64,000 bases of DNA from Oryzias latipes (Eukaryota > Chordata > Actinopteri > Beloniformes > Adrianichthyidae): positions 30,850,747 to 30,914,746 of the forward strand of contig NC_019867.2 of NCBI RefSeq assembly GCF_002234675.1, written 5' to 3'. The stretch's first letter is position 1, and each line of letters begins with the position of its first letter. The position numbers and the translations under genes are program-made. A model generated the notes under the pieces. That model had not been told where the DNA came from. It ran no database searches and saw only the letters and a list, made by a program, of their open reading frames with translations. Shown here piece by piece: positions 6,512-64,000 of the stretch.

Positions 6512-6792
6512 TCATGTGAAGGTGATGAGGTATTCTGGGTACGCCTGGGTGTCATTGAACACCACAAACATGGTTGGGGAGTTTATGTTATCCGTCACGC
6601 TGTCGTACAGGTCAGCTGACTGCCCAGATTTGGAGGGAGGGATAATCATGCCAGAACTTCCCTGGGTGAAATCCCCGACCAGAACCCGGGCCTGGTACAT
6701 GCGTTTGTGCCCCTGGTTGTCGGGTTGGGCGTAGTTCTGAGCCGAATAGGCGGGATCCACGGCGAAGTAGGAGCCGTTCCCGAACATCGCAC
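6512..6792 (-). CDS. parp14: Gene A exon 24: catalytic tyrosine and C-terminus
   Basis: Encodes [20 protein letters not shown], with the second triad residue in GSYFA. It ends [14 protein letters not shown] and a TGA stop. The YLITF ending is shared with PARP10/14/15. There the third triad position is hydrophobic rather than glutamate, consistent with mono- rather than poly-ADP-ribosylation. Confidence 0.93.
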
Positions 6793-36700: not shown

Positions 36701-38960
36701 AAAGCCAAGACCGTCAACCTTTTACAGTATCTAGCATAGAGGGGGATTCTAAATTCTCTTCCCCTAACCCGAACTCCAGAGGAGGGAAAGTGAAGTCAGA
36801 GACGTTACCATCAGCTGATGACTGGGATCTGAGCTCAGCTTCAACTTGATGGTTTCCTTCTCCAAGACGATTTCATGGTTCTTCCTCTTGAGGACCTCCT
36901 CCCTCACTGCAAACAAACAAGAAGGTAGAGTTCAGCTCCGCGTAGAAACATCTCTGTGTGGTCACACTTCATCTGACACGAGGACAGATTCCAGCACTGA
37001 GGAACTTTCAGGTTTCGGGGGCTGGAGGGCGGACTTTCAGGGATGAAGAGATGAAAACCAGCAGCTGATCAGAACAGAAAGCAAGACAGGTTTTCTCTGC
37101 TGTGTTCTCTCTTTTGCAACAGGAACGTTCCAAAACAGCTGCGCCTTTCGTTGATCAGTGAGAGCAGCGAGTCATCGCCAAAGGTCCCCCCCCCCCCAGG
37201 TCAAACAGACAGATCATGTGTATGACAGTGAAAACCCCACAGCCAGACTCAAACACGGAGGTGGCAGAGTAATGGTCTGGGAAGCTTTAGGATTTTTCTT
37301 CGTTCCTGTAATGTTTCATTCATTTATTACAGATATTAGGGCTGCACGATATGAGGAAGATTGTTTTAGCACATTTAAGGTTACCATTTATTGCCATTTT
37401 TGCCATTTTTTGTGATATGCTTATCCCGCAGCTTGATATCGCGATAATTTGTGATTTATGGTGCAGGTCTAATATCAATATTTTTCTGACTGAAATCATG
37501 AAAGACTTGTATGAAGGGGAACATAAATTATTGATGATTTAAACTTTATTCTGTGTTATAATGTAGACTATTACTGTTCATTTTTGATGCTCCACACTAA
37601 TGATGTGAAAAATCAACACTGTGTTCAAATTCAGCTTAAGTGTTGCTTCAACTCTGGCCTGGTGTGAAATATTGAACACTCTCATAAGTGTAGTATTAAC
37701 TTGTCACGCCATTCATTTTTTTGTGCTATTAATTAATCGTGACCTTTAATTAATCTAATTCATCTATTTTTAATTATTAAAGTAATTATTTTAGCCAAAA
37801 ATTACCGTCAAAAGCCTCATTTTGAGATATTTTCATTTAAATTTGCGACATTGTGGTGCAGAAAAAGATCACTAAAAACTACAAAAGTGAAATTTTCCTC
37901 ATGTAACAGACCTCCAACCTTTACTTTTACATCAAAGTGATTTTTTTACTCTCAAATGTAGTTGTGTTGTGTTCCTGCTGACATGTTTGTGTGAACATTT
38001 CTGGAGCCAACAGGTTTGTTTGAAACATTTGAGTGTCTGTGGACAGGCCCCGCCCCTTTTGACTAACATTTACATCTGACAGTAAAGATGATGAGATGAT
38101 GAAAAATCATCCCAGAATAACCAGAATAATCCTCCAACCTCCGTTACCCCCCCCCCCCTTTCTCCCCTCTTCTTTTGTACCCTGAGCCCCCGTCTCTAAC
38201 ATCGCTTCTTCTTTTTCTTTCAGTCTAACAAAAAAAATCAACATAAATAAAGTTTGGTCTGAAATCCAAAAGGGGTTTATTCAAATATAGACCTCCTGGG
38301 TCACTACTGTACTCAAGAGGCCTTCAGCTCTCATCTGTTTGCTCAGCTGCTGAACAGGACAAGTTAAAGAATAAAAAATGAGATTATTGTGATTAAATAA
38401 ATGCAAACTTGTCTGTAATCAATAATTCAACAGCTGTAGTTTGAATTCAGTGGAGACATTGGAAGTGTAGCTGATTTTGCTGTGAGCCTTCAGCCAGCAG
38501 TGAGTCACTGATGTGACTCAACTATCAGGTGATGAAGAGCGGTGCATGCTGGGAGCTCTCACCATAGGTAGGATAATAAACCCGGGTTAATGGTGATCAT
38601 TAACCCGTGTTAATGGCCTGATCGATTGTCACGTGACAGACTTGTTTGTTCCAGACGAACAACAGGCAGTAAATACAAACAAACCACATTTGTCCAATCC
38701 TCCAACCATCAGCTCTGTCTCTGACAGTCCTCCTGCTGTCACTGGAACCCGCATGAGTTCGGCTGAGGTTGCGGGTTCGAGCACTCACCCTCCCCGGAGC
38801 TGAAGTAGACTCTGGCGGCGTCGTCCTCCAGCTCCACCCGGCAGTCTCCTCCGCCAGACTTCTTCTTGCTCTGGAAGTAAACCTGCAGCTTCAGCTTGAC
38901 GCTTTTCTGCTGGGACGGATCCCAGTCCCCCTCCACGACCACCGGCGGACCGTCAGCCAT
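6512..38960 (-). CDS. parp14: PARP14-like mono-ADP-ribosyltransferase, gene A (24 exons)
   Basis: Coding exons, 5' to 3': 38789-38960, 36809-36906, 35096-35123, 34321-34437, 32513-32686, 32139-32423, 30934-31059, 25998-26099, 23358-25539, 21930-22100, 21732-21792, 21052-21288, 20355-20576, 19121-19208, 17809-18060, 14564-14626, 13936-14121, 13170-13373, 12028-12137, 11310-11545, 10836-11232, 10202-10342, 8178-8352, 6512-6792. All phases agree; the total is 6108 nt, about 2035 residues (human PARP14 is about 1800). Approximate layout: RRM-like repeats 1-400, KH-like region 400-880, macrodomain 1 890-1075, RGG linker 1095-1151, macrodomain 2 1152-1325, Gly-Ser tract near 1365, macrodomain 3 1390-1589, WWE 1720-1790, catalytic domain 1838-2035. 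Family role: transfers single ADP-ribose units, reads ADP-ribose marks, and is interferon-induced. The ISRE upstream of exon 1 supports that. Introns are crowded with transposons. Confidence 0.93.
6793..8177 (-). other. parp14: Gene A intron 23
   Basis: About 1.4 kb. A minus-strand frame at 7150-7401 ([20 protein letters not shown] and on) follows an AG and looks exon-like in composition, but no good donor or family match supports it. Otherwise I see nothing specific. Confidence 0.3.
8178..8352 (-). CDS. parp14: Gene A exon 23: catalytic histidine
   Basis: Encodes [20 protein letters not shown], then [17 protein letters not shown] and [10 protein letters not shown]. The HGT motif supplies the first residue of the H-Y-x triad that binds NAD+. 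Confidence 0.92.
8629..8670. repeat. Perfect 17-bp inverted repeat, 8-base loop
   Basis: The arms TAAAAATCTGATAAACC (8629-8645) and their exact reverse complement (8654-8670) would form a stable hairpin in the intron transcript on either strand. Confidence 0.85.
9564..9612. repeat. 22-bp inverted repeat with short loop
   Basis: The arms start AAGTAGATTATGATACTAA and pair with 9591-9612 with a single mismatch around a 5-base loop. It lies in gene A intron 22. Confidence 0.8.
10202..10342 (-). CDS. parp14: Gene A exon 22: start of the catalytic domain
   Basis: Encodes [15 protein letters not shown], then [18 protein letters not shown] and GFSITVIS, the N-terminal part of the ART fold. Two nested acceptors exist (10342 or 10344). 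The first keeps the reading frame with exon 21 as modelled. Confidence 0.85.
10624..10829. mobile_element. piggyBac-type MITE, copy 2
   Basis: Same family as the copy at 2362. TTAA precedes the left end (10620-10623); the right flank is TGTT. It lies in gene A intron 21, six bases from the modelled splice donor of exon 21. Confidence 0.75.
10836..11232 (-). CDS. parp14: Gene A exon 21: WWE domain
   Basis: Contains [20 protein letters not shown] and [19 protein letters not shown], a WWE fold that binds iso-ADP-ribose or ADP-ribose. The preferred donor is the GT at 10834-10835 (TTA|GTAACA). It keeps the frame but lacks the usual G at the exon end. A piggyBac-type MITE ends at 10829, so the intron has only six native bases before foreign DNA. 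Confidence 0.82.
11310..11545 (-). CDS. parp14: Gene A exon 20: helical linker
   Basis: Encodes [20 protein letters not shown] and more charged helix through [14 protein letters not shown]. It is predicted coiled or helical and leads into the WWE domain. Phase 0 in, 2 out. Confidence 0.88.
12028..12137 (-). CDS. parp14: Gene A exon 19
   Basis: Encodes [20 protein letters not shown] and ends FQLCAENQQ. Linker between macrodomain 3 and the WWE region; ends in phase 0. Confidence 0.85.
12621..13061. mobile_element. Non-autonomous hAT-type element (441 bp)
   Basis: Ends TAGGGATGTAAC and GTTACAGCCCTC are imperfect inverted repeats. The flanks GTAAAAAG (12613-12620) and ATAAAAAG (13062-13069) are an 8-bp duplication with one change. 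No ORF. Gene A intron 18. Confidence 0.65.
13170..13373 (-). CDS. parp14: Gene A exon 18: end of macrodomain 3
   Basis: Encodes [19 protein letters not shown] and [17 protein letters not shown], then a charged tail. Two GT donors lie seven bases apart. Only the GTCAGT at 13168-13169 keeps the frame into exon 19, so the exon end is set at 13170. Confidence 0.88.
13859..13899. repeat. Perfect 18-bp inverted repeat, 5-base loop
   Basis: The arms CATGTATGTGTGCAGACA and their exact reverse complement surround GCTCA. It is 37 bases downstream, in transcript sense, of the exon 17 donor, close enough to affect splicing. Confidence 0.9.
13936..14121 (-). CDS. parp14: Gene A exon 17: macrodomain 3
   Basis: Encodes [18 protein letters not shown], then [19 protein letters not shown] and [12 protein letters not shown]. 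Phase 1 on both sides. Confidence 0.9.
14564..14626 (-). CDS. parp14: Gene A exon 16: macrodomain 3
   Basis: 63 bp encoding [20 protein letters not shown], the helix after the glycine loop. It joins exon 15 across a 3-kb intron in phase 1. Confidence 0.88.
14849..14869. repeat. (AAT)n microsatellite
   Basis: Seven AAT units in gene A intron 15. Confidence 0.8.
14910..15346. repeat. Dispersed repeat family R1, copy 1
   Basis: Shares TTATACATCGGTGG, GTCTGTTAGACAAAC, GGAAAGACACACATT and CATACGTGGAAAATG with the copy at 33547-33976, and the downstream half with 61436-61722. No ORF; class unknown. Same orientation as the other copies. Confidence 0.7.
15803..15970 (+). pseudogene. Myb/SANT-like protein of the Harbinger element, truncated
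   Basis: Reads [20 protein letters not shown] and [16 protein letters not shown], similar to the NAIF1/Myb-like accessory protein that delivers Harbinger transposase. The frame is lost after about 45 residues, where ALLMPK replaces the expected continuation. Confidence 0.6.
15982..16224 (-). pseudogene. HARBI1-like transposase, N-terminal fragment
   Basis: Reads [20 protein letters not shown], then [20 protein letters not shown] and [11 protein letters not shown], a typical HARBI1-type N-terminus. The catalytic DDE part is absent, so it cannot act. Confidence 0.7.
17164..17381. mobile_element. piggyBac-type MITE, copy 3
   Basis: Ends CCCTTGTGCTATC and GATAGCACAAGGG; TTAA follows at 17382-17385. 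It also keeps a subterminal palindrome GGGGTCAAAATGACCCC that the other copies have lost. Gene A intron 15. Confidence 0.8.
17560..17720. repeat. Dispersed fish repeat with GCGCTT-rich end
   Basis: Contains CTCAAAGCGCTTACAGTGT, GGGGCAGACTGACAGAGGCG and GCCCCTCTGACCATCACC, phrases I recognise from a very common teleost interspersed repeat. No coding potential. Confidence 0.5.
17809..18060 (-). CDS. parp14: Gene A exon 15: Gly-Ser tract and start of macrodomain 3
   Basis: Starts [15 protein letters not shown], then about nine GS repeats encoded by a 12-bp DNA repeat, then [20 protein letters not shown] and [15 protein letters not shown]. The Gly-Ser run acts as a flexible hinge. Its DNA repeat makes length polymorphism likely. 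Confidence 0.88.
17950..18015. repeat. parp14: 12-bp tandem repeat inside exon 15
   Basis: Units of GATCCTGATCCA on the plus strand encode Gly-Ser repeats on the minus strand. About five imperfect copies. Confidence 0.85.
19121..19208 (-). CDS. parp14: Gene A exon 14: linker between macrodomains 2 and 3
   Basis: 88 bp encoding [15 protein letters not shown], an alanine run and [10 protein letters not shown]. Too short for a standard ORF scan. It is supported by good splice signals and by phase (0 in, 1 out) matching exons 13 and 15. Confidence 0.72.
19300..19690. repeat. Dispersed repeat family R3, copy 1
   Basis: Shares AGGTGAGAC, CACAAGG, TATCACGTGCACA and GCAGCATTTGTGTACGGTA-like blocks, in the same order and spacing, with 26690-27065. 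Class unknown. Gene A intron 13. Confidence 0.55.
19700..20354 (-). other. parp14: Remainder of gene A intron 13
   Basis: A minus-strand frame of 100 codons at 19838-20140 has protein-like composition, but no splice support and no family I recognise. Possibly an old transposon remnant joined to the R3 repeat. Confidence 0.25.
20355..20576 (-). CDS. parp14: Gene A exon 13: macrodomain 2 C-terminal half
   Basis: Reads [17 protein letters not shown], then [15 protein letters not shown], the phosphate-binding loop, and [16 protein letters not shown]. 74 codons, phase 0 on both sides. Confidence 0.9.
21052..21288 (-). CDS. parp14: Gene A exon 12: macrodomain 2 core
   Basis: [20 protein letters not shown], then [12 protein letters not shown] and [20 protein letters not shown]. 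The canonical NAAN is replaced by NTIA, as in reader-type PARP macrodomains, and the glycine loop is reduced. Confidence 0.9.
21400..21640. repeat. AT-rich degenerate tandem repeat
   Basis: Nearly pure A/T. Two imperfect units of about 65-70 bp, each with TATAATTTTATTATA followed by an ATTACAT block, in gene A intron 11. Confidence 0.55.
21732..21792 (-). CDS. parp14: Gene A exon 11: start of macrodomain 2
   Basis: 61 bp encoding [20 protein letters not shown], the first strand and the GNI/GD-like loop of macrodomain 2. Phase 2 in and phase 0 out. Confidence 0.85.
21930..22100 (-). CDS. parp14: Gene A exon 10: RGG-rich linker
   Basis: Encodes [20 protein letters not shown], then [14 protein letters not shown] and a charged Lys/Gln-rich tail. 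Phase 2 on both sides matches exons 9 and 11. Repeated RG/RGG motifs typically bind RNA and are arginine-methylated. I do not recall such a linker in mammalian PARP14. It sits between macrodomains 1 and 2. Confidence 0.82.
22184..22446 (-). mobile_element. tRNA-derived SINE, minus orientation
   Basis: On the minus strand it starts GGGCGGCCGTGGTGCAGCGG (A-box-like) and has GGTTCAATTCC (B box). It then continues with AAGTGTCCTTGGGCAAGACA and ends in an AAAGCGCT-containing tail. The same family lies in opposite orientation at 26185. Gene A intron 9. Confidence 0.75.
22915..23121. mobile_element. piggyBac-type MITE, copy 4
   Basis: Flanked by TTAA on both sides (22911-22914 and 23122-23125), the clearest target-site duplication of the four copies. 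The terminal bases carry single changes from the family consensus. Gene A intron 9. Confidence 0.82.
23358..25539 (-). CDS. parp14: Gene A exon 9: KH-like region and macrodomain 1
   Basis: A single 2182-bp exon. The first two thirds are the long PARP14 middle region, which is described in the family as KH-like folds. The last 200 residues are macrodomain 1: [56 protein letters not shown] and [13 protein letters not shown]. The NAAN and GD motifs that hold ADP-ribose are intact. In human PARP14 the first macrodomain is reported to be a hydrolase; whether this one is cannot be read from sequence. Confidence 0.93.
25998..26099 (-). CDS. parp14: Gene A exon 8: last RRM-like unit
   Basis: Reads [15 protein letters not shown] and [10 protein letters not shown], the beta-strand pattern of an RRM. 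It continues directly into exon 9 ([13 protein letters not shown]). Its open reading is short, so it is easily missed by ORF scanning. Confidence 0.85.
26185..26415 (+). mobile_element. tRNA-derived SINE, plus orientation
   Basis: Diverged A-box region (GATGTGGTAGGGCAG), the shared body CAAAGTGTCCTTGGACAAGA, and the tail GAAAGCGCTACACAAGTA. Same family as 22184-22446. Gene A intron 7, close to exon 8. Confidence 0.65.
26690..27065. repeat. Dispersed repeat family R3, copy 2
   Basis: Collinear with 19300-19690: GTAGGTGAGACACAGG, then TATCACGTGCACAACCCATG and GCGGCATTTGTGTACAG. Same orientation as copy 1. Confidence 0.55.
27385..27500. repeat. Dispersed repeat family R2, inverted fragment
   Basis: Close to the reverse complement of 57400-57480; it shares GACGTTCATGGATCTGTCTG and GCAGGTGGATGATCAGAA. 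Confidence 0.65.
28176..29111 (+). CDS. Proline-rich repeat protein of the LTR element
   Basis: Begins [20 protein letters not shown] just inside the 5' LTR and stops inside the 3' LTR, 311 residues. The head is charged. Then come [11 protein letters not shown] repeats (three), about five [13 protein letters not shown] repeats, LPDPPELGS repeats and [13 protein letters not shown] repeats. The coding DNA is tandemly repeated and GC-rich, unlike its surroundings. It may be a derived Gag-like protein; I cannot confirm any Gag domain. The start at 28176 was chosen because the longer upstream frame is LTR sequence. Confidence 0.5.
   Translation: MDQPNFLDPAERDMRLLEAYCQEAERTRSYWVFDQAQFSSYAWSGSPLDFTGSHLALRGGRRRGHRPRPRPVVVPDAPQPRPVVVPDAPQPRPVVVMDAPRPVPAPRRVPPSPRPVPAPRRVPPSPRPVPAPRRVPPSPRPVPAPRRVPPSPRPVPAPRRVPPSPRPVPAPRGVLAAPRPVPASMRSTPDPPELGSLPDPPELGSLPDPPELGSTPDPPADSMPDSMPDPTPDDPTPDGPADSTPPRQSSRPASPGRSAPRPSSGPASPGRSAPRPSSGPASPGGTDPWPSSGLPELVCPSRFVLRGTVMV
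29526..30665. mobile_element. hAT-type element nested in the 3' LTR
   Basis: Ends TAGGGTTGTGCCGATG and CATCGCCCAACCCTA are inverted repeats with small differences. The 8-bp flanks CCCTCACA (29518-29525) and CCCTCAAA (30666-30673) are the duplicated target, matching the uninterrupted 5' LTR. 1140 bp, no transposase frame. Confidence 0.8.
30934..31059 (-). CDS. parp14: Gene A exon 7
   Basis: 126 bp, identical in length to gene B exon 6. Reads [20 protein letters not shown] and ends [13 protein letters not shown]. It closes the RRM-like repeat array and leads to exon 8 in phase 1. Confidence 0.9.
32139..32423 (-). CDS. parp14: Gene A exon 6: fused repeat exon
   Basis: 285 bp. The first part ([20 protein letters not shown]) is homologous to exon 7. 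The second part ([19 protein letters not shown]) is homologous to exon 5. The two are joined with no intron. Gene B has no such exon. It looks like the product of tandem exon duplication with loss of the intervening intron. Confidence 0.9.
32513..32686 (-). CDS. parp14: Gene A exon 5: RRM-like repeat unit
   Basis: 174 bp. Reads [20 protein letters not shown], then [11 protein letters not shown] and [10 protein letters not shown]. This is a PARP14 RRM-like repeat with its own splice sites. Gene B exon 5 has the same length. The 3' part of exon 6 repeats it almost exactly. Confidence 0.9.
33547..33976. repeat. Dispersed repeat family R1, copy 2
   Basis: The longest copy, extending through CATACGTGGAAAATGAGC to GTGGCTGTTTGACACC. 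Gene A intron 4. Confidence 0.7.
34321..34437 (-). CDS. parp14: Gene A exon 4: Ser/Glu-rich linker
   Basis: Reads [16 protein letters not shown] and continues to SLEQPADK, with a strong GTAAGG donor. Tandem CAG acceptors leave the start ambiguous by one codon (34437 or 34440). It corresponds to the acidic linker exon 60144-60218 of gene B. Confidence 0.7.
35096..35123 (-). CDS. parp14: Gene A exon 3, 28-bp micro-exon
   Basis: Encodes GSTSIQEDS between a TTCTCCTCAG acceptor and a GTAATC donor. Gene B has a micro-exon of exactly the same length and phase at 59498-59525, which makes the call much stronger than its size alone would. Confidence 0.75.
36809..36906 (-). CDS. parp14: Gene A exon 2
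   Basis: 98 bp, the same length as gene B exon 2. Reads [20 protein letters not shown], completing the first RRM-like unit. Starts in phase 1 and ends in phase 0. Confidence 0.88.
37158..37300 (+). pseudogene. Tc1-like transposase fragment
   Basis: [20 protein letters not shown] matches the GGGSIMVWG segment conserved between the first and second catalytic aspartates of Tc1 transposases. Short and isolated; a few bases on, TTAGGGCTGCACGATAT marks the end of a different hAT-like repeat. Gene A intron 1. Confidence 0.45.
38789..38960 (-). CDS. parp14: Gene A exon 1: start codon and N-terminal RRM-like segment
   Basis: Begins [13 protein letters not shown] and continues through [18 protein letters not shown] to YFSSGE, the usual N-terminal strand pattern of PARP9/PARP14 proteins. 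The start is the first ATG after a short 5' UTR. The donor is GTGAGT and the exon ends in phase 1. The sequence is almost identical to exon 1 of gene B. Confidence 0.92.
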
Positions 38961-39025
38961 CCCGCCGAACCGAACCGAACAGACTGAGGCACAGCGGCGG
39001 GGCGGAGGTTTAAAGGCTGATCCTG

Positions 39026-39038
39026 ACTTTCACTTTCC
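39026..39038 (-). promoter_or_regulatory. parp14: ISRE upstream of gene A
   Basis: Minus-strand GGAAAGTGAAAGT fits the interferon-stimulated response element GAAANNGAAANN. It lies 66 bases before the start codon. A TTTAAA TATA-like box sits 12 bases downstream at 39009-39014. Known PARP14 genes are interferon-stimulated. Confidence 0.75.
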
Positions 39039-39774
39039 TTTCACCCTAAAGACTCGACAACGAAAGCTAGACTCGATTAGCAGGTTTAAGTTTTGTTTTT
39101 ACTAAAAAAAACCTGACGGGGGAAGAAACATTTGAGTCATTTTTGTTGATTTTTAATTATAAATTATCCTCTTAAATTAAACTTATTTATAGATTAGTCA
39201 TAGTTTCTGTGTGAGTTGCTGCCCTCTGGTGGACAACACTGGAACAGCATCGAGCCTCTAAATAAATAGAATAAACACAAATATATCATTTTATTTGACA
39301 CATTTATTTTCTTTAATAGATTTTATTATAATTTTAAAATTTGTTTCAATCCCTCGATTTCCTCTATTTGTAACGTTTTTTTCAATTCTTTTATTTTTGA
39401 CCTTTTTATTTTTAATTCCTGAAAGTAAAATAAACGATGTAAAGCAGAGTAAATATTTAATTTGAAGTAAGTTTTTCTGTGCATTTATCATAGTCAGGAA
39501 CTTTAATTTTAAAAAACTGAAAGACAGAGAGAACAAAAGGACCAAGAGGATGAGCATGAATGTTAGAGCAGATGTGGATAAACCAGGTGAGACTATGACT
39601 CACAAAGCTGACAACAGAAACACACAACCAGAAAAGAAAAGACAGCAAACAAAATGGGACATATTTGTCAAGTAACTTAAATTTTGTGAACAATAAATAA
39701 ACTTTTTTATACAGTCATTTTCTTGTTTAAGATTAAACAACGTAACATTCAGAACTTTTAAAATTTTATTTCAG

Positions 39775-40127
39775 CAGTCAGAATACGACATACTTTTTAC
39801 TTTTACTTGAGTACATCTCTGAGAAAAAAACTTGACTTTCACTGCGGTAAACTGGGCGTCTTGCTGCTCGAAATGGATGTTCTTATTTCCAGCCTCATTA
39901 AACGTTTTCTTACTGCGTTATTTTTGAATGACCATCTATCTATTTCTATGACACAAATGGGATGTTACTCATTAATTACTCACTACTTGTGTTTAATCCA
40001 AGTACTTTATTACTCTTACTCAAGTTTACATTTGGATGCCTACTCTCTACTCTAACTTGAGTAATATTTTGCTAAAGTAGCAATACTTTTACTTGAGTAA
40101 AATGTTTGAATACTCTGCCCACCTCTG
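39775..40127. repeat. hAT-like dispersed repeat
   Basis: Ends in TCTGCCCACCTCTG, whose complement CAGAGGTGGGCAGAGTA is a common fish hAT terminus. Many ACTTTTACTTGAGTA motifs lie inside. The left limit is approximate. Confidence 0.5.
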
Positions 40128-40524
40128 GGCAACCCTTAGTAACCCCAACTATGGTCACTGAGTTACGCAGTATCCCTGTCTCAACAGAGAGGGCGCTCTT
40201 GAGCTCGTGTTTGTTCCTCATTTGTTACTAATAAACTGACTTCCTATGTTCTTCTGTTATCAGACACAGCTGTGTTCTTCTTCACATACCTGACATGTTT
40301 TCGACGGACGTCTTCCATCTTCTATGAACGTTATTGAACTGTTACCAATAAAGTTTATTCTAGAGGATTAGCCAGTATTTTATGTATGTTTTGACAGATT
40401 TGATCTCATTGTGGACTTTTATTCAAAACATGAAGTCATAATTAATGACCAATGCTGACCAGGACATGTTTATTGAGACATATATAACTATATTAATCAA
40501 TAATAGGATCAGTGTCTGTGGTTA

Positions 40525-40585
40525 CAGGTTTGTAAATGTGGCTCTGAGAGCGTCAGTGCCTCACCGACCACAACCTTCAGCTCAC
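40525..40585. mobile_element. Fragment of the hAT family found in the Tc1 element
   Basis: TTTGTAAATGTGGCTCTGAG and GTCAGTGCCTCACCGACC match the right end of the 3811-4570 element, finishing in CTCACGTCAC. Confidence 0.55.
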
Positions 40586-41193
40586 GTCACCGCTCTGAAC
40601 ATCCTGCGTGTCTTTGATGGAGTGGAATCACAGACACACAAACCCCTCCATCAGGCTGAAAACATTTGGTGGTAGCTCCTCCCACACGCGGCTGAGGGGT
40701 CAAGCTTATGAACACAGCTTTGGACAGGCGTCCAGCCATGGCAAGTGAAAAGTGTCATAAATTGCAGGGAAAAGTGGCGTAAAAAACGGCGTTTCTGGCG
40801 TCAAAAATGTTGTTTTTTACGCTCAAGCAACAAATTTACTGCGGTATACTACGGAGAGGCGGTTGACGGCGGTTCCCCCGTGGAGCCTTAACTGCTCCTC
40901 TTAAATCGGTGACTGTTTTCCCAGCACACTTTAATATATGCTTCTCTTTCTTCAGACAGTTAACAACCACATAAAAAAATAAAAAGTATAATCTATAGAC
41001 AAGTCAATCCACGTAAAGCTGTTATGAATCAGCATCGTCGGGATCTGCGCTAATGTTTCTTTCCTTCTTGAAAATGTAGCTTTACGTAAAAACGAATGAG
41101 AAACTCCTGACAGCAACACCAAAGCTGCAGAGACTAAATGCTGCAGCCGCCGTTTCAGAACAAGTTCTTGTTTACAAACACGTTACACGTGTG

Positions 41194-44100
41194 CTCCTGT
41201 TGGACCTCCTGTTGGACCTCCTGTAGGACCTCCTGCGGGACCCCCTGTGGGACCCCCTGTGGGACCTCCTGTAGGACCTCCTGTTGGACCTCCTTTAGAA
41301 CCTCCTGTTGGGCCTCCTGTAGGACCTCCTGTGGGACCTCCTGTGGGACCTCCTGTGGGACCTCCTGTAGGACCTCCTGTAGGACCTCCTGTTGGACCTC
41401 CTGTAGGGCCTCCTGTTGGGCCTCCTGTAGGACCTCCTGTGGGACCTCCTGTAGGACCTCCTGTTGGACCTCCTGTAGGACCTCCTGTTGGACCTCCTGT
41501 GGGACCCCCTGTGGGACCCCCTGTGGGACCTCCTGTAGGACCTCCTGTAGGACCTCCTGTTGGACCTCCTGTAGGACCTCCTGTAGGACCTCCTGTTGGA
41601 CCTCCTGTAGGACCTCCTGTAGGACCTCCTGTTGGACCTCCTGTAGGACCTCCTGTTGGACCTCCTGTGGGACCCCCTGTGGGACCCCCTGTGGGACCTC
41701 CTGTGGGACCCCCTGTGGGACCTCCTGTGGGACCTCATGTTGGATCTCCTGTTGGACCTCCTGTTGGACCTCCTGTTGGATCTCCTGTTGGACCTCCTGT
41801 TGGACCTCCTGTGGGACCTCCTGCGGGACCTCCTGTGGGACCTCCTGTAGGACCTCCTGTTGAACCTCCTGTAGGACCTCCTGTTGGACCTCCTGTGGGA
41901 CCCCCTGTGGGACCCCCTGTGGGACCTCCTGTAGGACCTCCTGTAGGACCTCCTGTTGGACCTCCTGTAGGACCTCCTGTAGGACCTCCTGTTGGACCTC
42001 CTGTAGGACCTCCTGTAGGACCTCCTGTTGGACCTCCTGTAGGACCTCCTGTTGGACCTCCTGTGGGACCCCCTGTGGGACCTCCTGTGGGACCCCCTGT
42101 GGGACCTCCTGTGGGACCTCCTGTTGGATCTCCTGTTGGACCTCCTGTTGGACCTCCTGTTGGATCTCCTGTTGGACCTCCTGTGGGACCTCCTGTGGGA
42201 CCCCCTGTGGGACCTCCTGTGGGACCTCCTGTTGGACCTCCTGTAGGACCTCCTGTTGGACCTCCTGTTGGACCTCCTGTAGGACCTCCTGTTGGACCTC
42301 CTGTAGGACCTCCTGTAGGACCTCCTGTTGGACCTCCTGTTGGACCTCCTGTAGGACCTCCTGTAGGACCTCCTGTTGGACCTCCTGTTGGACCTCCTGT
42401 TGGACCTCCTGTGGGACCTCCTGTGGGACCCCCTGTGGGACCTCCTGTGGGACCTCCTGTGGGACCTCCTGTTGGGCCTCCTGTAGGACCTCCTGTAGGA
42501 CCTCCTGTTGGACCTCCTGTTGGACCTCCTGTTGGACCTCCTGTAGGACCTCCTGTTGGACCTCCTGTAGGACCTCCTGTTGGGCCTCCTGTGGGACCTC
42601 CTGTGGGACCCCCTGTGGGACCTCCTGTGGGACCTCCTGTGGGACCTCCTGTGGGACCTCCTGTGGGACCTCCTGTTGGGCCTCCTGTTGGACCTCCTGT
42701 TGGACCTCCTGTAGGACCTCCTGTAGGACCTCCTGTTGGACCTCCTGTTGGACCTCCTGTTGGACCTCCTGTAAGACCTCCTGTTGGACCTCCTGTGGGA
42801 CCTCCTTTAGAACCTCCTGTTGGACCTCCTGTTGGACCTCCTGTAGGACCTCCTGTTGGGCCTCCTGCGGGACCTCCTGTGGGACCCCCTGTGGGACCCC
42901 CTGTGGGACCCCCTGTGGGACCTCCTGTAGGACCTCCTGTAGGACCTCCTGTTGGACCTCCTGTAGGACCTCCTGTAGGACCTCCTGTAGGACCTCCTGT
43001 TGGACCTCCTGTAGGACCTCCTGTTGGGCCTCCTGTAGGACCTCCTGTGGGACCTCCTGTGGGACCTCCTGTGGGACCTCCTGTGGGACCTCCTGTAGGA
43101 CCTCCTGTAGGACCTCCTGTTGGACCTCCTGTAGGGCCTCCTGTTGGGCCTCCTGTAGGACCTCCTGTGGGACCTCCTGTTGGACCTCCTGTTGGACCTC
43201 CTGTTGGACCTCCTGTAGGACCTCCTGTAGGACCTCCTGTTGGACCTCCTGTAGGGCCTCCTGTTGGGCCTCCTGTGGGACCTCCTGTGGGACCTCCTGT
43301 GGGACCCCCTGTGGGACCTCCTGTTGGGCCTCCTGTGGGACCTCCTGTATGACCTCCTGTGGGACCTCCTGTGGGACCTCCTGTGGGACCTCCTGTTGGA
43401 CCTCCTGTAGGACCTCCTGTAGGGCCTCCTGCGGGACCTCCTGTGGGACCCCCTGTGGGACCTCCTGTGGGACCTCCTGTTGGACCTCCTGTTGGACCTC
43501 CTGTAGGACCTCCTGTGGGATCTCCTGTAGGACCTCCTGTAGGACCTCCTGTTGGACCTCCTTTAGAACCTCCTGTTGGGCCTCCTGTAGGTCCTCCTGT
43601 GGGACCTCCTGTGGGACCTCCTGTGGGACCTCCTGTAGGACCTCCTGTAGGACCTCCTGTTGGACCTCCTGTAGGGCCTCCTGTTGGGCCTCCTGTAGGA
43701 CCTCCTGTGGGACCTCCTGTTGGACCTCCTGTTGGACCTCCTGTTGGACCTCCTGTAGGACCTCCTGTAGGACCTCCTGTTGGAGCTCCTGTAGGGCCTC
43801 CTGTTGGGCCTCCTGTGGGACCTCCTGTGGGACCTCCTGTGGGACCCCCTGTGGGACCTCCTGTTGGGCCTCCTGTGGGACCTCCTGTATGACCTCCTGT
43901 GGGACCTCCTGTGGGACCTCCTGTGGGACCTCCTGTTGGACCTCCTGTAGGACCTCCTGTAGGGCCTCCTGTTGGACCTCCTGTTGGGCCTCCTGTTGGG
44001 CCTCCTGTGGGACCTCCTGTGGGACCCCCTGTGGGACCTCCTGTGGGACCTCCTGTGGGACCTCCTGCTGGACCTCCTGTTGGACCTCCTGTAGGACCTC

Positions 44101-45390
44101 CTGTGGGATCTCCTGTAGGACCTCCTGTTGGACCTCCTTTAGAACCTCCTGTTGGACCTCCTGTTGGATCTCCTGTAGGACCTCCTGTAGGACCTCCTTT
44201 AGAACCTCCTGTTGCACCTCCTGTAGGGCCTCCTGTTGGACCTCCTGTAGGACCTCCTGTAGGACCTCCTTTAGAACCTCCTGTTGCACCTCCTGTAGGG
44301 CCTCCTGTAGGACCTCCTGTAGGACCTCCTGTTGGACCTCCTTTAGAACCTCCTGTTGGACCTCCTGTTGGATCTCCTGTAGGACCTCCTGTAGGACCTC
44401 CTTTAGAACCTCCTGTTGCACCTCCTGTAGGGCCTCCTGTAGGACCTCCTGTAGGACCTCCTGTTGGACCTCCTTTAGAACCTCCTGTTGGACCTCCTGT
44501 TGGATCTCCTGTAGGACCTCCTGTAGGACCTCCTTTAGAACCTCCTGTTGCACCTCTTGTTGGGCCTCCTGTTGGGCCTCCTGTGGGACCTCCTGTGGGA
44601 CCCCCTGTGGGACCTCCTGTGGGACCTCCTGTGGGACCTCCTGTTGGACCTCCTGTTGGACCTCCTGTGGGACCTCCTGTAGGACCTCCTTTAGAACCTC
44701 CTGTTGCACCTCCTGTAGGGCCTCCTGTAGGACCTCCTGTAGGACCTCCTTTAGAACCTCCTGTTGGACCTCCTGTTGGATCTCCTGTAGGACCTCCTGT
44801 AGGACCTCCTTTAGAACCTCCTGTTGCACCTCCTGTAGGGCCTCCTGTAGGACCTCCTGTGGGACCTCCTGTTGGACCTCCTGTTGGACCTCCTGTGGGA
44901 CCTCCTGTGGGACCTCCTGTAGGACCTCCTGTAGGGCCTCCTGTTGGACCTCCTGTTGGGCCTCCTGTTGGGCCTCCTGTGGGACCTCCTGTGGGACCCC
45001 CTGTGGGACCTCCTGTGGGACCTCCTGTGGGACCTCCTGTTGGACCTCCTGTTGGACCTCCTGTAGGACCTCCTGTGGGACCTCCTGTGGGACCTCCTGT
45101 TGGACCTCCTGTTGGATCTCCTGTAGGACCTCCTGTAGGGCCTCCTGTTGGACCTCCTGTTGGGCCTCCTGTTGGGCCTCCTGTGGGACCTCCTGTTGGA
45201 CCTCCTGTAGGACATCCTGTGGGATCTCCTGTAGGACCTCCTGTAGGACCTCCTTTAGAACCTCCTGTTGCACCTCCTGTAGGACCTCCTGTAGGACCCT
45301 CCTGTTGGACCTCCTGTAGGACCTCCTTTAGAACCTCCTGTTGCACCTCCTGTAGGATCTCCTGTAGAACCACCTGTTGAACCTCCTCCT
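41194..45390. repeat. 4.2-kb minisatellite of a 12-bp unit
   Basis: About 350 units of CCTCCTGTNGGA. Variants (GGG, GTA, GTT, TTTAGAA, CCCC) are arranged in higher-order blocks. The TTTAGAA pattern recurs at 132 bp (44341 and 44473). A long block containing the only GTATGA variants recurs exactly 540 bp apart (43081-43360 and 43621-43900). Because 12 is a multiple of three and the unit lacks stops, long frames exist on both strands: Pro-Pro-Val-Gly (41247-43352) and Ser-Cys-Gly-Thr (43349-45319) on plus; Gln-Glu-Val (41155-45273) and Gly-Gly-Pro-Thr (41735-45466) on minus. One extra base near 45297 shifts the phase. No splice or promoter context supports coding, so I annotate it as repeat DNA. 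Confidence 0.95.
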
Positions 45391-47774: not shown

Positions 47775-47805
47775 ATGGTCCCTCTGAGGCTGGTCGCCTT
47801 CGGCT
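47775..47805 (+). CDS. SUEL gene exon 1 (signal peptide start)
   Basis: MVPLRLVAFG, ATG in a GCAGCATGG context, donor GTGAGT, ends in phase 1. Confidence 0.7.
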
Positions 47806-48819
47806 GTGAGTATCGTCATGGTGGCATCATTCAGCAGCGTCACGTCAGAAAGGAGCGTCCGGTTCTGAGCTGCATGTCCGGTTCTGAGCTGCATGTCCGG
47901 TTCTGAGCTGCATGCCCGGTTCTTTGACCCCTGCTCCTCTGCAGAGCTGCTCCCTCCTGTGACGGCTGCTCTCTTGTGTTTCAGTGCTGGCTGCAGCCGG
48001 ATGTCTCGCTGGAGTTGCAGGTGAGTTTGGAGCAGACGCGGCAGCAGCAGACGCTGCAGCAGCAGACGCTGCACGTCTCTGGGCTGCTGAACGCTTCTTC
48101 TCCTTGTTCTTCATAGAAAAGTATCGCAGAATAACATCAGAAAAAGTCTCAACAGAGTTTCTGAACAAATAATGTTAAATGTTCGTCTGTGAGAAGTGTT
48201 AGATTCCATAAAATACTATCTTTTAATTTGATCCTGGTCGTGTTACCGCCTGTGTTTTTATTTTATTTCTTAAAAATACCATAAACAGTAATAATAATGA
48301 TTTACACTAGATTACACTTTTTTAAACAGTACAAGTGTTCAGAATTTTGTTTCTTCATGTTTATATTTTGTTTGGAGACAAACGTCTCTTTTCCTGCTGT
48401 GAAACACGCCATCAGGTCAGAAACCTGCCGTCAGCCGGCGTCCTGACGCTCATGTGGCGAGGATCAAATTATAGCAGAGTCGAAGGATTTCAAACTTTCC
48501 TTAGAGGATTTCAAATATTACTAAAAGTGAAATAATTGGTTTTATAAATGCAGAGAAATGTGAGATTCAAAACAACACAAACAGTATGCATTTTAAACTA
48601 AACATCATTTCATTTTTTAACATATTAGAACTGAGCAGGTGGCGTAGTGGTCAGCACTCTTTCTGCAAAGTCAGGTTTGAATCCCGGCTGGGACCTTTCT
48701 GTGTGTATTTTGCATCTTCTTTTCGTGCACGCGTGGATTTTTCTCAGGCTTCCTCCTACAATCCAAAAAGAAAACAGGCGTCGTAGGTTGATTCCAAAAT
48801 GTCCCTAGCTGTGTGTGTG

Positions 48820-48857
<38 letters not shown>

Positions 48858-48862
48858 GGGTG

Positions 48863-48894
<32 letters not shown>

Positions 48895-51373: not shown

Positions 51374-51586
51374 TGCTCCGCAGGAAGACCACATGTGTCT
51401 CTGAGTCTGCAGCTCGCTGCGTTTCTGTGCTGCAGAGCAACACGCTTCATGTCTGTGAAGAGGCACACGCTTCCTCACAGGAGGCGGGGCCTTTCATCCC
51501 AAGGGTCCTGAAGGTTTTCCCTGTTCTGCATCTGTCATTGTTACAGTGATGTCATCGTCTGCTTTTGTACTCTAAACAATGAAAAC

Positions 51587-51592
51587 AATAAA
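51587..51592 (+). terminator. Polyadenylation signal of the SUEL gene
   Basis: AATAAA about 215 bases after the predicted stop, followed by a GT-containing stretch. Confidence 0.6.
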
Positions 51593-52984
51593 CATGTAAA
51601 CACAACAGACGTGTGCGATTATCTTCAAACTCACACTAAAACCTGTGCTGATATAATCAATACCACATTTCCTAAATAATTGTTATTTATCAGATAAAAA
51701 GGCCAATTATTATACAACTTTTCTCCTTAATTGTTTGACTAACAAACTTTTCTCCATGAGACGATAATGTTCAGTCTGCAGAATCCTGATTTTCAGCTGA
51801 AGTTTGAAAGTTTTCATTTAAACCAAGAAGAAAACCTTTGTATTTATTTATTTATTATAATATAGAATAAAGGGCAGGAAACAGAGATCTTCAGAATTTC
51901 GGTTTTTGGAGATTGATTTTTCTAATTATTTATATACTTCTTTTGTACTCTAACAGCAAATTGTGATCATATCTGATTGTGTGTTTGCTGGAGGTTGTGT
52001 TGTTGCTAACAGCCTCATCTCACACCAAACAAGAAACAAGATTCTGAACTTTTATCTGACACTGAAATGTGTCCGATCTTCGATCTAAACTTTGATTTAT
52101 GCAAAACTTGATGTTACCACTGTCCCTTTTAACCCAATGTTACACTTAAATAAAAAAAAAAAAAAAAACGATGGACTCACTTTTTACCTTTTCAGAAGAT
52201 ATTCACATCCAGTTCCACCTTTATACCACAGGGTGGCGCCAAAAACATAAATAATTGAATACGGAAATAGTTTTCTATTTTAGTCTGAAAACAACACAGT
52301 AAACATTTGTGTTTGGCTTAGTGTTTTTAAAGATTTATGGCTTTTCTATTTCCAAAGTTTCATTTTTAATTTAGCTAAAACTGATTACAAGTGTTAATTT
52401 TAATATTATTCCTTCTCATTTCATCTCAGTTTACATTATTTGTATTGGTTTAGAGCAAAGTCATGTTTATTTAAAAAAAAAAATGGTTGACTATTTAACC
52501 CACAATGGGGAAATTTGGTCTCCGCATTTGACCCCTCCCCTGGGGGAGCAGTGAGCTGCAGACACAGCCGCGCTGTGGCACCATTTGGGGGTTCAATGTA
52601 TGATTCAATATATTAATTGTGTTAATATTATGTTAATTGTGTCATTCCATATTTTTGAGCAAGAAACACTTTTGATTCAGTGTTCATTGGTTTAAAGAGG
52701 AGAATCTGGTCAAAACGTGATTCCAGTGGCTCTGGTTTAGTTTCTAAGTTAAATGAATTGACTGCGCAGTTACGCTTAGTGGCCACTAGATGGAGACAAA
52801 AACGACATCTGCAGGAAGCGATGGTTGCGTTTATTTTGTTTTATCTACGTTTTTGAGCTTCTCTCGGTTTGTGAGTTTATGTGTTTTTATATAATGTTTT
52901 ATATATATATATATTTCTTAACCGTTTTGAAGCAATGTTTTCCCAGCATTGCCTTTAGTCATGGTGGAAATAACTTATATCAGT
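51593..52984. other. Region between the SUEL gene and gene B promoter
   Basis: AT-rich. It contains an A-rich run near 52150 and, at about 52484-52600, a common teleost repeat (AATGGGGAAATTTGGTCTCC, GGGGGAGCAGTGAGCTGCAG). No gene seen. Confidence 0.5.
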
Positions 52985-53011
52985 TTCGTTGTCGAGTCTT
53001 TTAGGGTGAAA

Positions 53012-53024
53012 GGAAAGTGAAAGT
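53012..53024 (+). promoter_or_regulatory. parp14: ISRE upstream of gene B
   Basis: GGAAAGTGAAAGT, the same element as in gene A's promoter, 65 bases before the start codon. A TTTAAA box follows at about 53035. Predicts interferon control of both copies. Confidence 0.75.
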
Positions 53025-53088
53025 CAGATCAGCCTTTAAACCTCCGCCCCGCCGCTGTGCCTCAGTCTGTCCGGTTCGGTTCGGCGGG

Positions 53089-53260
53089 ATGGCTGACGGT
53101 CCGCCGGTGGTCGTAGAGGGGGACTGGGATCCGTCCCAGCAGAAAAGCGTCAAGCTGAAGCTGCAGGTTTACTTCCAGAGCAAGAAGAAGTCTGGCGGAG
53201 GAGACTGCCGGGTGGAGCTGGAGGACGACGCCGCCAGAGTCTACTTCAGCTCCGGGGAGG
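53089..53260 (+). CDS. parp14: Gene B exon 1
   Basis: [20 protein letters not shown] and on, same protein as gene A exon 1. Donor GTGAGT. Confidence 0.92.
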
Positions 53261-56200
53261 GTGAGTGCTCGAACCCGCAACCTCAGCCGAACTCATGCGG
53301 TTCTGATTTTCTGTTTCAAGGAAAACTTTTCAGTGACTCTGCTACCCCCCCCCCCCCTCAATAAAAACCAACGTACACCTGTAAGCTGACCTCCCAGCAG
53401 GCACTGCTCCTCCTCTTTTAACTGGTTGCGCATTTGCGAGCTTAAACTGTGTCACGCACACACTTGGGGAGTTTTTTTGTCACGCTGTCACAAAATATTT
53501 ACACATTTCGGACAGTCTTTTTCGGGGGAGGGGGTGCGCAGAATGATCAGCTGACATCCATCCATCTCCAGCCCCCACCCAAAGGAAGCTGTCCCATCTG
53601 TTTATTGAGGGGGTGTGTCCCGTGACTCAGCGCTGTTCATCATAACAGACTAGTTCAGACTTTGGACTTCATCCCTACCTTCAGCTCCTCCACCTGTGGG
53701 AGGGGCGCCTTCCTCACCTCTTCTTTCTCTTTCGGCTTTTCCCATCAGGGGTCGCCACAGCGAATCATCCTCTTCCACCTCACTCTATCATGAACATCTT
53801 CTACCCTAACATTAGCCAACTTCATGTCCTCTGTCAAGACATCCATATATCTCCTCTTTGGCCGTCCTCTTGCCCTCCTGCCAGGCAGCTCCATCTCCAA
53901 CATCCTTCTACCAATATATCCACTATCCCTCCTCTGAACATGTCCAAACCATCTCAGTCTGGCTTCTCTGACTTTGTCGCTAACACAGGCAACATGAGCC
54001 GTCCCTCTGATGTACTCGTTCCTTATCCTGTCTAACCTGGTCACTCCTAAGGAGAACCTCAACATCTTCATCTCCGCTACCTCCATCTCAGTCTCTTGTC
54101 TCTGTCTCACTGCTACCGTCTCTAACCCATAGAGCAGAGCTGGTCTCACCACTGTCTTGTACACCTTTCCTTTGAGTCTTGCTGACACTCTTCTGTCACA
54201 CAACACTCCTGACACTTTCCTCCACCCGCTCCAACCTGCCTGCACTCGCCTCTTCACCTCTTTTCCACACTCCCCATGACACTGAACTGTTGACCCCAAG
54301 TACTTAAACTCCTGCACCTTCTTCACCTCAGCCCCCTGTAACCTAACGCTTCTACCTTGGTCCCTCTCGTTCAGACACATGTATTCTGTCTTACTACGAC
54401 TGACCTTCATGCCTCTTCTTTCCAGAGCAAACCTCCACCTCTCTAGCTGTTCCTCCACCTGCTCTCTACTCTCACTGCAAATTACAATGTCATCCGCAAA
54501 CATCATTGTCCAGGGAGATTCCTGTCTTACCTCGTCTGTCAGCCTGTCCATCAGCATAGCAAACAAAAAAGGACTCAAAGCTGATCCTTGGTGTAGTCCC
54601 ACCTCCACCTTGAACTCCTCTGTCTGACCTACAGCACATCTCACCACCGTCATACTTCTCTCATACATGTCCTGAACTACTCTGACATACTTCTCTGCCA
54701 CTCCAGACGACCTCATACAGTACCACAGCTCCTCCCTCGGCACCCTGTCATACGCCTTCTCTAAATCTACGAACACACAATGCAGCTCCTTCTGACCTTC
54801 TCTGTACTTTTCCATCAACATTCTCAAAGCAAAAATGGCATCAGTGGTGCTCTTACGGGGCATGAAACCATACTGCTGCTCACAGATCTCCACCTTCTTC
54901 CTAAGCCTGGCTTCCACTACTCTTTCCCACAGCTTCATTGTGTGGCTCATCAACTTTATTCCTCTATAGTTGCTGCAGTTCTGCGTGTCACCCTTGTTCT
55001 TAAAGATCGGGACCAGAACGCTTCTCCTCCATTCCTCAGGCATCTTCTCACTCTCTAGAATCCTATTGAACAACCTTGTTAGAAATTCCACTGCTGTCTC
55101 TCCTAAGCACTTCCATACCTCCACAGGTAGGTCATCAGGACCAACGGCCTTTCCGCTCTTCATCCTTTTCAGAGCCTTTCTAACCTCATCCTTTCCAATC
55201 TCTGCTACTTCCTGCTCCACAACAACCACATCTTCCTCCCTTCTTTCCCTGTCATTTTCCTCGTTCATCAGCTCCTCAAAATACTCCTTCCATCTTTTCT
55301 GTACACTCTCCTGGGTTGTTAGCACCTTTCCATCTCTGTCCTTAATCACCCTTATCTGTTGCACGTCCTTCCCATCTCTGTCTCTCTGTCTGGCTAGCCT
55401 GTACAAGTCCTTTTCTCCTTCCTTTGTGTCTAACCTGTCATATAGCTCATCGTAAGCTTTCTGTTTGGCCTTTGCCACCTCTCTCTTCACTTTACGCTGC
55501 GCTTCCTTGTACTCCTGTCTACCTTCCTCAGTCCTTTCTACATCCCACTTCCTTTTAGCCAACCTCTTCCTCTGGACGCATTCCTGTATTTCCTCATTCC
55601 ACCACCAAGTGTCTTTACCGTCTTTCCTCTTTCCAGATGACACACCAAGCATCTTCCTACCTGTTTCCCTGATAATCTCTGCTGTAGTTTTCCAGTCATC
55701 TGGAAGCTCATCCTGACCACCCAGGACCTGTCTCAACTTCTGCCTAAATTCCTCACAAGTTTCTTCATTCTGTAGCTTCCACCACTTGGTCTTCTTTTCT
55801 GTTTTCCCTCTCTTCTTCTTCCTGACCTCCAGAGTCATCTTACACACCACCATGCGGTGCTGTCTGGCTACACTCTCTCCTACCACCACTTTGCAGTCAA
55901 TAACCTCTCTCAAATGACTTCGTCTACACAGGATGTAGTCCACCTGAGTACTCCTACCTCCACTTCTGTATGTCACTCTATGTTCCTCTCTCTTCTGGAA
56001 GTAAGTGTTGACTACAGCCATTTCCATCCTCTTCGCAAAGTCTACCACCATCTGTCCCTCCAGATTCCTTTCCTTCACACCAAACCTGCCCATCACCTCC
56101 TCATCACCTCTGTTGCCCTCACCAACATGCCCATTAAAGTCTGCTCCAATAACAACTCTCTCTCCTCTAGGAAAACTCTCTATGACCTCATCCAACTCAC

Positions 56201-63081: not shown

Positions 63082-64000
63082 GTACCTAAAAGTACTCAGC
63101 ATATACTACATACTTACACAGTTTCTGTGTTTTTCATTGTGTGGTTTTATTTCCTGTTGAAATTAATTTTATTTCTTTCCTGATGTCTCCTCTCATTTTT
63201 TTTAGCCGCCATTTTTTTATTGTATCAGCTTGAAAACATCCTCTTTACTTTTTTCCACCCAAGCCTTGAACTTTTAAACAAAAGCAAATCTAACAGATTT
63301 CTATAAGCTTTGAGTTTGTATCTGCAGTGGCACATATTCTTTATATTTTTGTTGTTTTTAGTCTTAGTTATTTACCATAAATTCCAGACTACAAAGCGCA
63401 CCCGATTACAAGCCGCACCCAGCCATTTTCACGTGTTTAACTACTTTTGTTCAAACACAAGCCGCGCCAGAGTAAAAGCCGCATGTATTAGGAGACATTG
63501 TCATCCTAACAGATCACGTTCTGACTCCCAGAGTAAGCGTGATTCATTTGCACACCATGGGAGTCAGCTTTACCTCAGGCTCATGTATTAGAGTACATCT
63601 ACATTTGCCAAACACCATGGACCTCTATTCTGTTCACAAGTTCCTCAGTTATGTTTTTTTTTATTTTTATTTTTTTAGTTTTTTTTTACTTATTGACAAT
63701 CTAGGTATCATACATAAAATTACAAACAGTAAACATATAATCAACATTACATCCCTGTTATGATGAGGAAATTTACATCCGCGATTCCCCATTTCCCATG
63801 AGTCTTAGGGGCTAAAGGCGGGGCCAACGCCCGGCTCGCCATACTATTGTAGGTGTTTAAGAATGAGCAAGCATCAGCAGTGCATGGAGGAGTGAACGGG
63901 AACAGCTCTCCTTTCGCTTGTGTCGCGGCAGCGTTATGGGAGTAACAGGACTGGTTAAAAAACACACCGGTAAAATAAAGCAGCGGCGACTGAAAAGCGC
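63082..64000 (+). other. parp14: Gene B intron 6 up to the window edge
   Basis: Contains at about 63376-63500 a common fish repeat with AAGCGCACC, AAGCCGCACC and AAAAGCCGCA phrases, then T-rich DNA. No further exon identified before the edge. Confidence 0.5.

Follow-up and report, generated by a model that had tools for sequence, protein, structure and literature searches.

Recurrent gene conversion probably homogenises two islands of a head-to-head PARP14-like gene pair in medaka

In mammals, the interferon-induced genes IFIT1 and IFIT1B are homogenised within species at their 5′ ends (97% in cat, 98% in ferret) and diverged in their 3′ part (62% in ferret), and passages of the same study describe the exchange as recurrent, with a repeated breakpoint (Daugherty et al. 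2016, PMC4887208). Concerted evolution of duplicated pairs by gene conversion likewise leaves stretches that are closer between paralogues than between orthologues (e.g. PMC2720389), and in the PARP family, gene conversion of human PARP4 and selection on PARP14 have been described (passages of PMC4248024). Here we analyse two PARP14-like genes, gene A and gene B, in a 64-kb window of Oryzias latipes (medaka); the window, with a GC content of 0.44 and zero N, is the whole stretch of DNA studied.

As in IFIT1/IFIT1B, part of the medaka paralogues is homogenised and the rest has diverged. In contrast to that system, the homogenised parts in medaka are a short block of promoter and exon 1 and, beyond intervening diverged exons, one separate internal exon, and the genes are inverted. 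The concerted evolution of PMC2720389 offers a shared feature, but the medaka pair has two discrete islands within a single multi-exon gene, of which one covers the promoter. Unlike the PARP14 family in general, the genes are duplicated head to head, and the RRM2 exons of gene A are doubled. We found no description of this PARP14 conversion in the open-licence PMC literature, as covered by titles, beginnings of abstracts and some passages. With a probability of about 0.83, we attribute the pattern to recurrent inter-locus gene conversion between the head-to-head PARP14 paralogues, limited to two islands, the promoter with exon 1 and the KH/macro1 exon 9. The genes, the first island and the exons compared with it are as follows.

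6512..38960, minus strand: gene A, PARP14-like, from ATG (38960) to stop (6512-6514)
53089..64000, plus strand: gene B, 5′ part of the second PARP14-like gene, with its ATG at 53089; it leaves the window after the RRM2 exons
38749..39065, minus strand: homogenised island 1, gene A copy (from the promoter through the 5′ untranslated region [UTR] and exon 1 to the splice donor and the first 40 bp of intron 1)
52984..53300, plus strand: homogenised island 1, gene B copy, same content
38789..38960, minus strand: gene A exon 1, encoding the beginning of RRM1, from the spliced open reading frame
53089..53260, plus strand: gene B exon 1
36809..36906, minus strand: gene A exon 2, encoding the remainder of RRM1; diverged
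57876..57973, plus strand: gene B exon 2, diverged
32513..32686, minus strand: gene A exon 5, first RRM2 unit (X1), differing from X2 at 13 of 174 bases
32139..32423, minus strand: gene A exon 6, fused Y1 and X2, from an internal tandem duplication of RRM2 exons
30934..31059, minus strand: gene A exon 7 (Y2)
61855..62028, plus strand: gene B RRM2 exon X, differing from gene A X2 at 41 of 174 bases
62956..63081, plus strand: gene B RRM2 exon Y, differing from gene A Y2 at 28 of 126 bases

The two ATGs lie head to head, 14.1 kb apart. A blastn comparison gave an inverted match of 52984-53300 with 39065-38749 over 318 aligned columns at 98.7% identity, and a more lenient local alignment resolved the differences into two substitutions and three single-base indels, one of these indels being at the 3′ edge. 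One substitution is in the 5′ UTR and the other is synonymous (GTG/GTA, codon 9). In both genes the island runs from 105 bp upstream of the ATG to 40 bp inside intron 1. A sequence-only reading of this DNA had described two head-to-head genes nearly identical at 38756-39063 and 52985-53300, with about four differing positions and a strongly diverged next exon; the arrangement and the number of differences were borne out, and the coordinates were right within a few bases. The exon 2 peptides that it quoted were found at 36860-36904 (minus strand) and 57878-57922 (plus strand).

Between genes A and B, exon 1 differs at 1 of 172 bases (synonymous divergence, dS, 0.03; nonsynonymous divergence, dN, 0) and exon 2 at 30 of 98. 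Pooling exon 2 with the two RRM2 exons gave 99 of 398 differing bases and a dS of 0.54, a contrast with exon 1 at a Fisher probability of 3.8e-16. This DNA-level excess of identity covers silent and non-coding sites as much as coding sites, so protein constraint does not explain island 1. To strong purifying selection on exon 1 combined with a fast-evolving exon 2 we therefore give almost no credence. Exon 1 does encode a conserved RRM1 core, with the motif SKKKSxGG in nearly all 20 rows, but identity at UTR, intron and synonymous sites is as high as at coding sites. Furthermore, between orthologues exon 1 is little more conserved than exon 2 in Oryzias, Channa and frogs (see below); the exception is Anabas 1 against C. 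argus 1, at 83% in exon 1 and 58% in exon 2.

By domain content, both genes are PARP14-type. The corresponding database proteins, P0001 (A0A3B3HJV2_ORYLA) for gene A and P0004 for gene B, contain 13 and 12 Pfam families above the cut-off, among them RRM, KH, three macro, WWE and PARP catalytic domains. In gene A, 21 exons were spliced stop-free up to the WWE domain (1782 amino acids); the catalytic exons are seen as reading frames and in P0001, and their exact joins are not set. Gene B has linker exons that are not fixed, and its protein beyond the window end was taken from P0004 and P0005. As the P0004 model begins in exon 2, the first half of RRM1 of gene B was read from the window DNA. Two medaka models of gene B go wrong at the exon 1/exon 2 junction, P0007 by running into intron 1 and P0005 by quitting exon 1 early; thus, public N-termini of gene B are unreliable.

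The second island is exon 9.

23358..25539, minus strand: gene A exon 9, 2182 bp, KH1-6 and macro1 (Pfam), homogenised island 2; its gene B partner is beyond the window

The core of this exon matches P0001 at 714 of 715 residues. The proposal of a homogenised promoter and exon 1 was confirmed, but these are not the only part in concert, since exon 9 is homogenised too; with its gene B copy beyond the window end, that island was out of sight of the sequence-only reading.

The quartet compared consisted of medaka A, medaka B, P0002 (O. javanicus A) and P0006 (O. melastigma B). A site was scored as species-type when it united medaka A with medaka B and the remaining pair with each other, and as orthology-type when it united orthologues. 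The doubled RRM2 unit is present in medaka A and O. javanicus A and single in medaka B and O. melastigma B, an independent marker, so that the A/B orthology is not based on similarity alone. Within gene A, the RRM2 units (30934-32686, minus strand) themselves look partly homogenised, with 5 species-type and 2 position-type sites against O. javanicus.

Species-type and orthology-type sites numbered 5 and 0 in exon 1, 2 and 24 in exons 2-8, 63 and 2 in exon 9, and 9 and 85 from exon 10 to the catalytic domain. Those results were matched by the trees. For exon 9 (26 rows), medaka A grouped with medaka B and O. javanicus A with O. melastigma B, both nodes starred, and a medaka A/O. javanicus A grouping was rejected (approximately unbiased [AU] test, p 1.4e-47). 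For exons 10 to the catalytic domain (26 rows), the A orthologues and the B orthologues each grouped with a support of 100, and the medaka pair was rejected (AU p 2.4e-35), as it was for exons 2-8 (20 rows; AU p 0.0024). The four Oryzias genes formed one clade in the tree from exon 10 onward, which indicates that, among the sampled species, the duplication is Oryzias's own. The phylogenetic signal thus switches sharply along the gene: exons 1 and 9 go by species, and exons 2-8 and 10 onward by orthologue. This was the outcome of the grouping check that the sequence-only reading had proposed. The gene pair is a mosaic of two islands evolving in concert and a remainder evolving freely, a pattern that fits neither a recent duplication in one piece nor plain constraint.

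Judged from protein sequences, exon 1 is probably homogenised in the javanicus-group lineage as well. Orthologues are 81% (exon 1) and 76% (exon 2) alike between medaka A and O. javanicus A, and 88% and 79% between medaka B and O. melastigma B. O. javanicus A and O. melastigma B, which are not orthologues, are also 88% alike in exon 1, equal to the medaka B/O. melastigma B value, and 55% in exon 2. Medaka exon 1 is closer to O. melastigma B than to O. javanicus A, there being 5 javanicus-only residues and 1 melastigma-only residue. This leans slightly towards gene B as the donor, although it may instead reflect more private changes in O. javanicus A.

Two sets of medaka sequences, which we assign to separate assemblies on the basis of accession prefixes, bear on the timing: that of the window, with P0001 and P0004, and a presumed second assembly with P0003 and P0007. 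In exon 9, strain-type sites outnumbered orthology-type sites by 10 to 3, whereas elsewhere the counts were 3 and 129. The exon 9 core of the window's gene A matches gene B of the same assembly (P0004) at 690 of 715 residues, compared with 682 of 715 for gene A of the other assembly. As read from the protein sequences, these data show that homogenisation of exon 9 went on after the lineages of the two assemblies had split. Exon 1 is identical in all four proteins (57 of 57 amino acids), so its exchange is not datable in this way.

The second assembly also bears on whether the exon 1 copy was duplicated or misplaced by an assembler. A 4.2-kb minisatellite of 12-bp units lies between the genes and what we analysed is assembled sequence, which could favour such an artefact. 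However, the two copies differ by substitutions and indels and lie in different flanks, the second assembly's proteins show both genes with the same exon 1, and P0007 reads into the same gene-B-specific intron sequence. We therefore consider an artefact very improbable.

We extended the comparison to other fish. In the Channa argus gene pair, 2 of 59 residues differ in exon 1 and 10 of 29 in exon 2; between C. argus 1 and C. striata, 8 of 59 differ in exon 1 and 5 of 31 in exon 2 (86 and 84% alike). Exon 1 is thus the closer part only between paralogues. With Mastacembelus as the outgroup, sites uniting the C. argus pair and sites uniting C. argus 1 with C. striata numbered 3 and 15 in the listed regions of exons 2-8 and 10 and 31 after exon 9, and exons 2-8 rejected the C. 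argus pair (AU p 0.0003 in the 20-row tree). In the rear half of exon 9 the pair prevailed by 8 to 2 (Mastacembelus) or 9 to 0 (Anabas as outgroup), and the front half was even (6 and 6). Channa and pooled tests based on three-sequence counts without an outgroup were left unused, as the polarised counts showed that they overstated exon 1. The Anabas pair is 98% alike in exon 1 and 42% in exon 2, and Anabas and Channa are 78-83% alike in exon 1. Together, these comparisons indicate that exon 1 homogenisation has occurred in Channa and Anabas as well.

Similar pairs were found in the poison frogs Anomaloglossus, Phyllobates and Ranitomeya (P0134-P0136, P0138, P0140, P0141). They are 35-63% alike over most of their length and 83-87% in exon 1; in exon 9 the front half is 79-81% and the last half 46-49% alike, a break that falls within one exon. 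Between the orthologues Anomaloglossus 1 and Phyllobates 1, exon 1 is 75% and exon 2 is 83% alike. Species-type and orthology-type sites in exon 1 numbered 7 and 3 for Anomaloglossus against Phyllobates, and again 7 and 3 against Ranitomeya. For the first quarter, the second quarter and the last two quarters of exon 9, the former comparison gave 11 and 29, 19 and 0, and 1 and 102, respectively; the latter gave 10 and 27, 24 and 0, and 1 and 94. For Phyllobates against Ranitomeya, the exon 9 counts were 6 and 44, 12 and 0, and 1 and 127. Exon 1 homogenisation is thereby indicated in at least one frog lineage, and the counts suggest that its exchange is old and that the homogenised state of part of exon 9 persists between the two closer genera.

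We also surveyed pairs of proteins from one species, picked by eye from 147 listed proteins, one of the listings giving the best 120 of 211. Of the 21 rows in the first set, 20 paired proteins of a single species, medaka twice. Pairs that were likely isoforms or exon 1/2 misreads were excluded (O. melastigma P0006/P0008, Myripristis, Labrus bergylta, Kryptolebias, Cyprinodon, Pundamilia and Dissostichus). The Dissostichus P0051 model, for instance, opens with unrelated residues, which puts its exon 1 (43/58) below its exon 2 (22/25). Similarly, the medaka row P0001/P0005 matches at only 45 of 54 residues of exon 1 because the P0005 model leaves that exon early and continues in other sequence; the exon's DNA is present in the window. 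Eighteen pairs readable in both exons were kept, from 12 species, Micropterus dolomieu and five more, and the two proteins of a pair may not always be separate loci. In the seven pairs with exon 2 below 85% (medaka, Anabas, C. argus, Cheilinus and three frogs), exon 1 was 16 to 56 points higher in 7/7; the three frog pairs seem to stem from one duplication and are not independent.

The edges of the exon 1 tract are where a single event has to be considered, in which one promoter/exon-1 module was recently copied between the genes in medaka by template switching or insertion, replacing or supplying a first exon. At both tract ends identity drops at once from about 99% to unalignable, as would be natural for an insertion. 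But inspection by eye revealed no target-site duplication at either edge, and in the same gene pair exon 9 is homogenised as well while exons 2-8 between the two islands are not. The 88% against 55% identity of O. javanicus A and O. melastigma B, where exon 1 was probably homogenised too, and the similar pairs in Channa, Anabas and frogs do not favour a single copying event either, and we regard it as unlikely. The sequence-only reading had offered conversion or a promoter/exon-1 swap: conversion was retained, and a single swap became less likely given the javanicus group, Channa, Anabas and at least one frog lineage, with some probability left to it for medaka alone.

Several observations weigh against recurrent conversion. 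In textbook gene conversion, tract ends fall inside homologous sequence. Here the flanks from 60 to 1000 bp beyond either end of the exon 1 tract scored near shuffled sequence, with no significant homology, so conversion must assume eroded edges. The older homology around the tract may indeed have eroded, as the intron sequence adjoining exon 2 is as unalignable between the genes as are the tract flanks. A 28-bp match in intron 1 (z 5.3 against shuffles) was discarded as residual homology, since random 400-mers from the window reached it in 33/2000 and 157/2000 trials; the other exception to the unalignable flanks is an AT-rich match at the far end of intron 1. Also on the negative side, one A gene from O. 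javanicus and one B gene from O. melastigma, two different species, represent the full set in the quartet (no O. javanicus B or O. melastigma A was among the 147 proteins listed, including the best 120 of 211). Exon 1 is short, and its 5-to-0 sites are weak if taken alone. Exon 9 of gene B is known as a database protein only, which makes the evidence for that island protein-level. This applies to all evidence from outside Oryzias; it derives from gene models in databases, and in several of these exon 1 or 2 is misread. In Channa, exon 1 supports the pair by distance only: polarised with Mastacembelus or Anabas, it gave 1 site for the pair and 0 for the orthologues. The orthologue of the second Anabas gene is absent from the compared set, and for Phyllobates against Ranitomeya exon 1 gave 1 species-type and 4 orthology-type sites. 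Finally, in 11 of the 18 surveyed pairs exon 2 was about as similar as exon 1; with exon 2 at 91% or more, these are uninformative.

For recurrent gene conversion speaks further that both genes keep their position and their own markers: the doubled RRM2 unit follows the A orthology, and the gene B intron junction is present in the second assembly's protein. We infer that the exchange takes place at meiosis and that it would last where homology is long, as in exon 9, or where breaks are frequent, as might hold for a promoter CpG block under incomplete PRDM9. Among the 21 joined exons, exon 9 (2182 bp) stands out in length, the next being 285 bp, and hence offers the most uninterrupted homology. 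Breaks at the island 1 promoter may seed the exchange of exon 1. The outcome would be two genes that share the core promoter and the first half of RRM1 and are almost alike in their KH array and macro1, yet differ in RRM2, macro2/3, WWE and catalytic domains.

Island 1 has a GC content of 0.60 and a CpG observed/expected ratio of 0.89, against 0.47 for the window, and both copies contain a TTTAAA box, by eye. According to passages of Baker et al. 2017 (PMC5519329), O. latipes has a partial, SET-only PRDM9-beta; in amphibians PRDM9 was not identified, with the extent of its loss called unclear, and in animals without a working PRDM9 recombination occurs at promoters and CpG islands. It is conceivable, though we find it doubtful, that without a complete PRDM9, breaks on CpG-rich promoters make duplicates go on converting each other's promoter and first exon throughout their coexistence. 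The PARP14 paralogues of medaka and, at protein level, those of other percomorphs and of frogs bear the pattern that this would leave, with promoter and exon 1 kept alike and the following exon free to diverge. If so, the regulation of duplicates would stay matched without selection for matching, and first exons would be misleading for gene trees generally in vertebrates without a complete PRDM9. Selection on RRM1 as a unit is an unlikely cause, given that exon 1 encodes half of that domain and the other half, in exon 2, diverges freely; selection on the promoter is a possible one.

Both island 1 copies carry the core of an interferon-stimulated response element (ISRE), GAAAGTGAAA, 67-68 bp upstream of the ATG (39028-39037 in gene A, 53013-53022 in gene B). 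The window holds 10 such cores compared with 6.2 expected, and 12 of 100 shuffles reached 10; as this count is not significant against chance, the core was dropped as evidence in itself. Passages of two studies report parp14 induction in a salmonid line by trout IFNA2 (PMC6612602) and its increase with nodavirus in sole (PMC8875540). Matched interferon control of genes A and B, put forward in the sequence-only reading, is a possible consequence of the exchange.

The window also contains several repeats. Between genes A and B, a 12-bp unit (CTCCTGTAGGAC) is repeated about 349 times in a 4.2-kb minisatellite (41194-45387), which has long open frames in both orientations. A non-long-terminal-repeat retrotransposon (53748-56792, minus strand) with an unbroken endonuclease/reverse-transcriptase frame of 1015 amino acids, possibly a recent insertion, lies within intron 1 of gene B. 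A transposase frame of the Tc1/mariner type (4690-5736, minus strand) is likewise unbroken over 349 amino acids. In or beside gene A, a direct repeat of about 180-230 bp occurs in four copies that are 88-98% alike (2358-2576, 10620-10830, 17164-17396 and 22948-23126).

In this antiviral-type pair, promoter and first exon and one large internal exon would thus evolve in concert while the remaining protein follows its own course, and distant vertebrates show signs of a similar pattern. PARP14 paralogue orthology calls made from exon 1 or from the KH/macro1 exon can therefore be wrong. The gene pair provides a natural test between promoter-directed recombination and selection for matched induction as what holds duplicates together.

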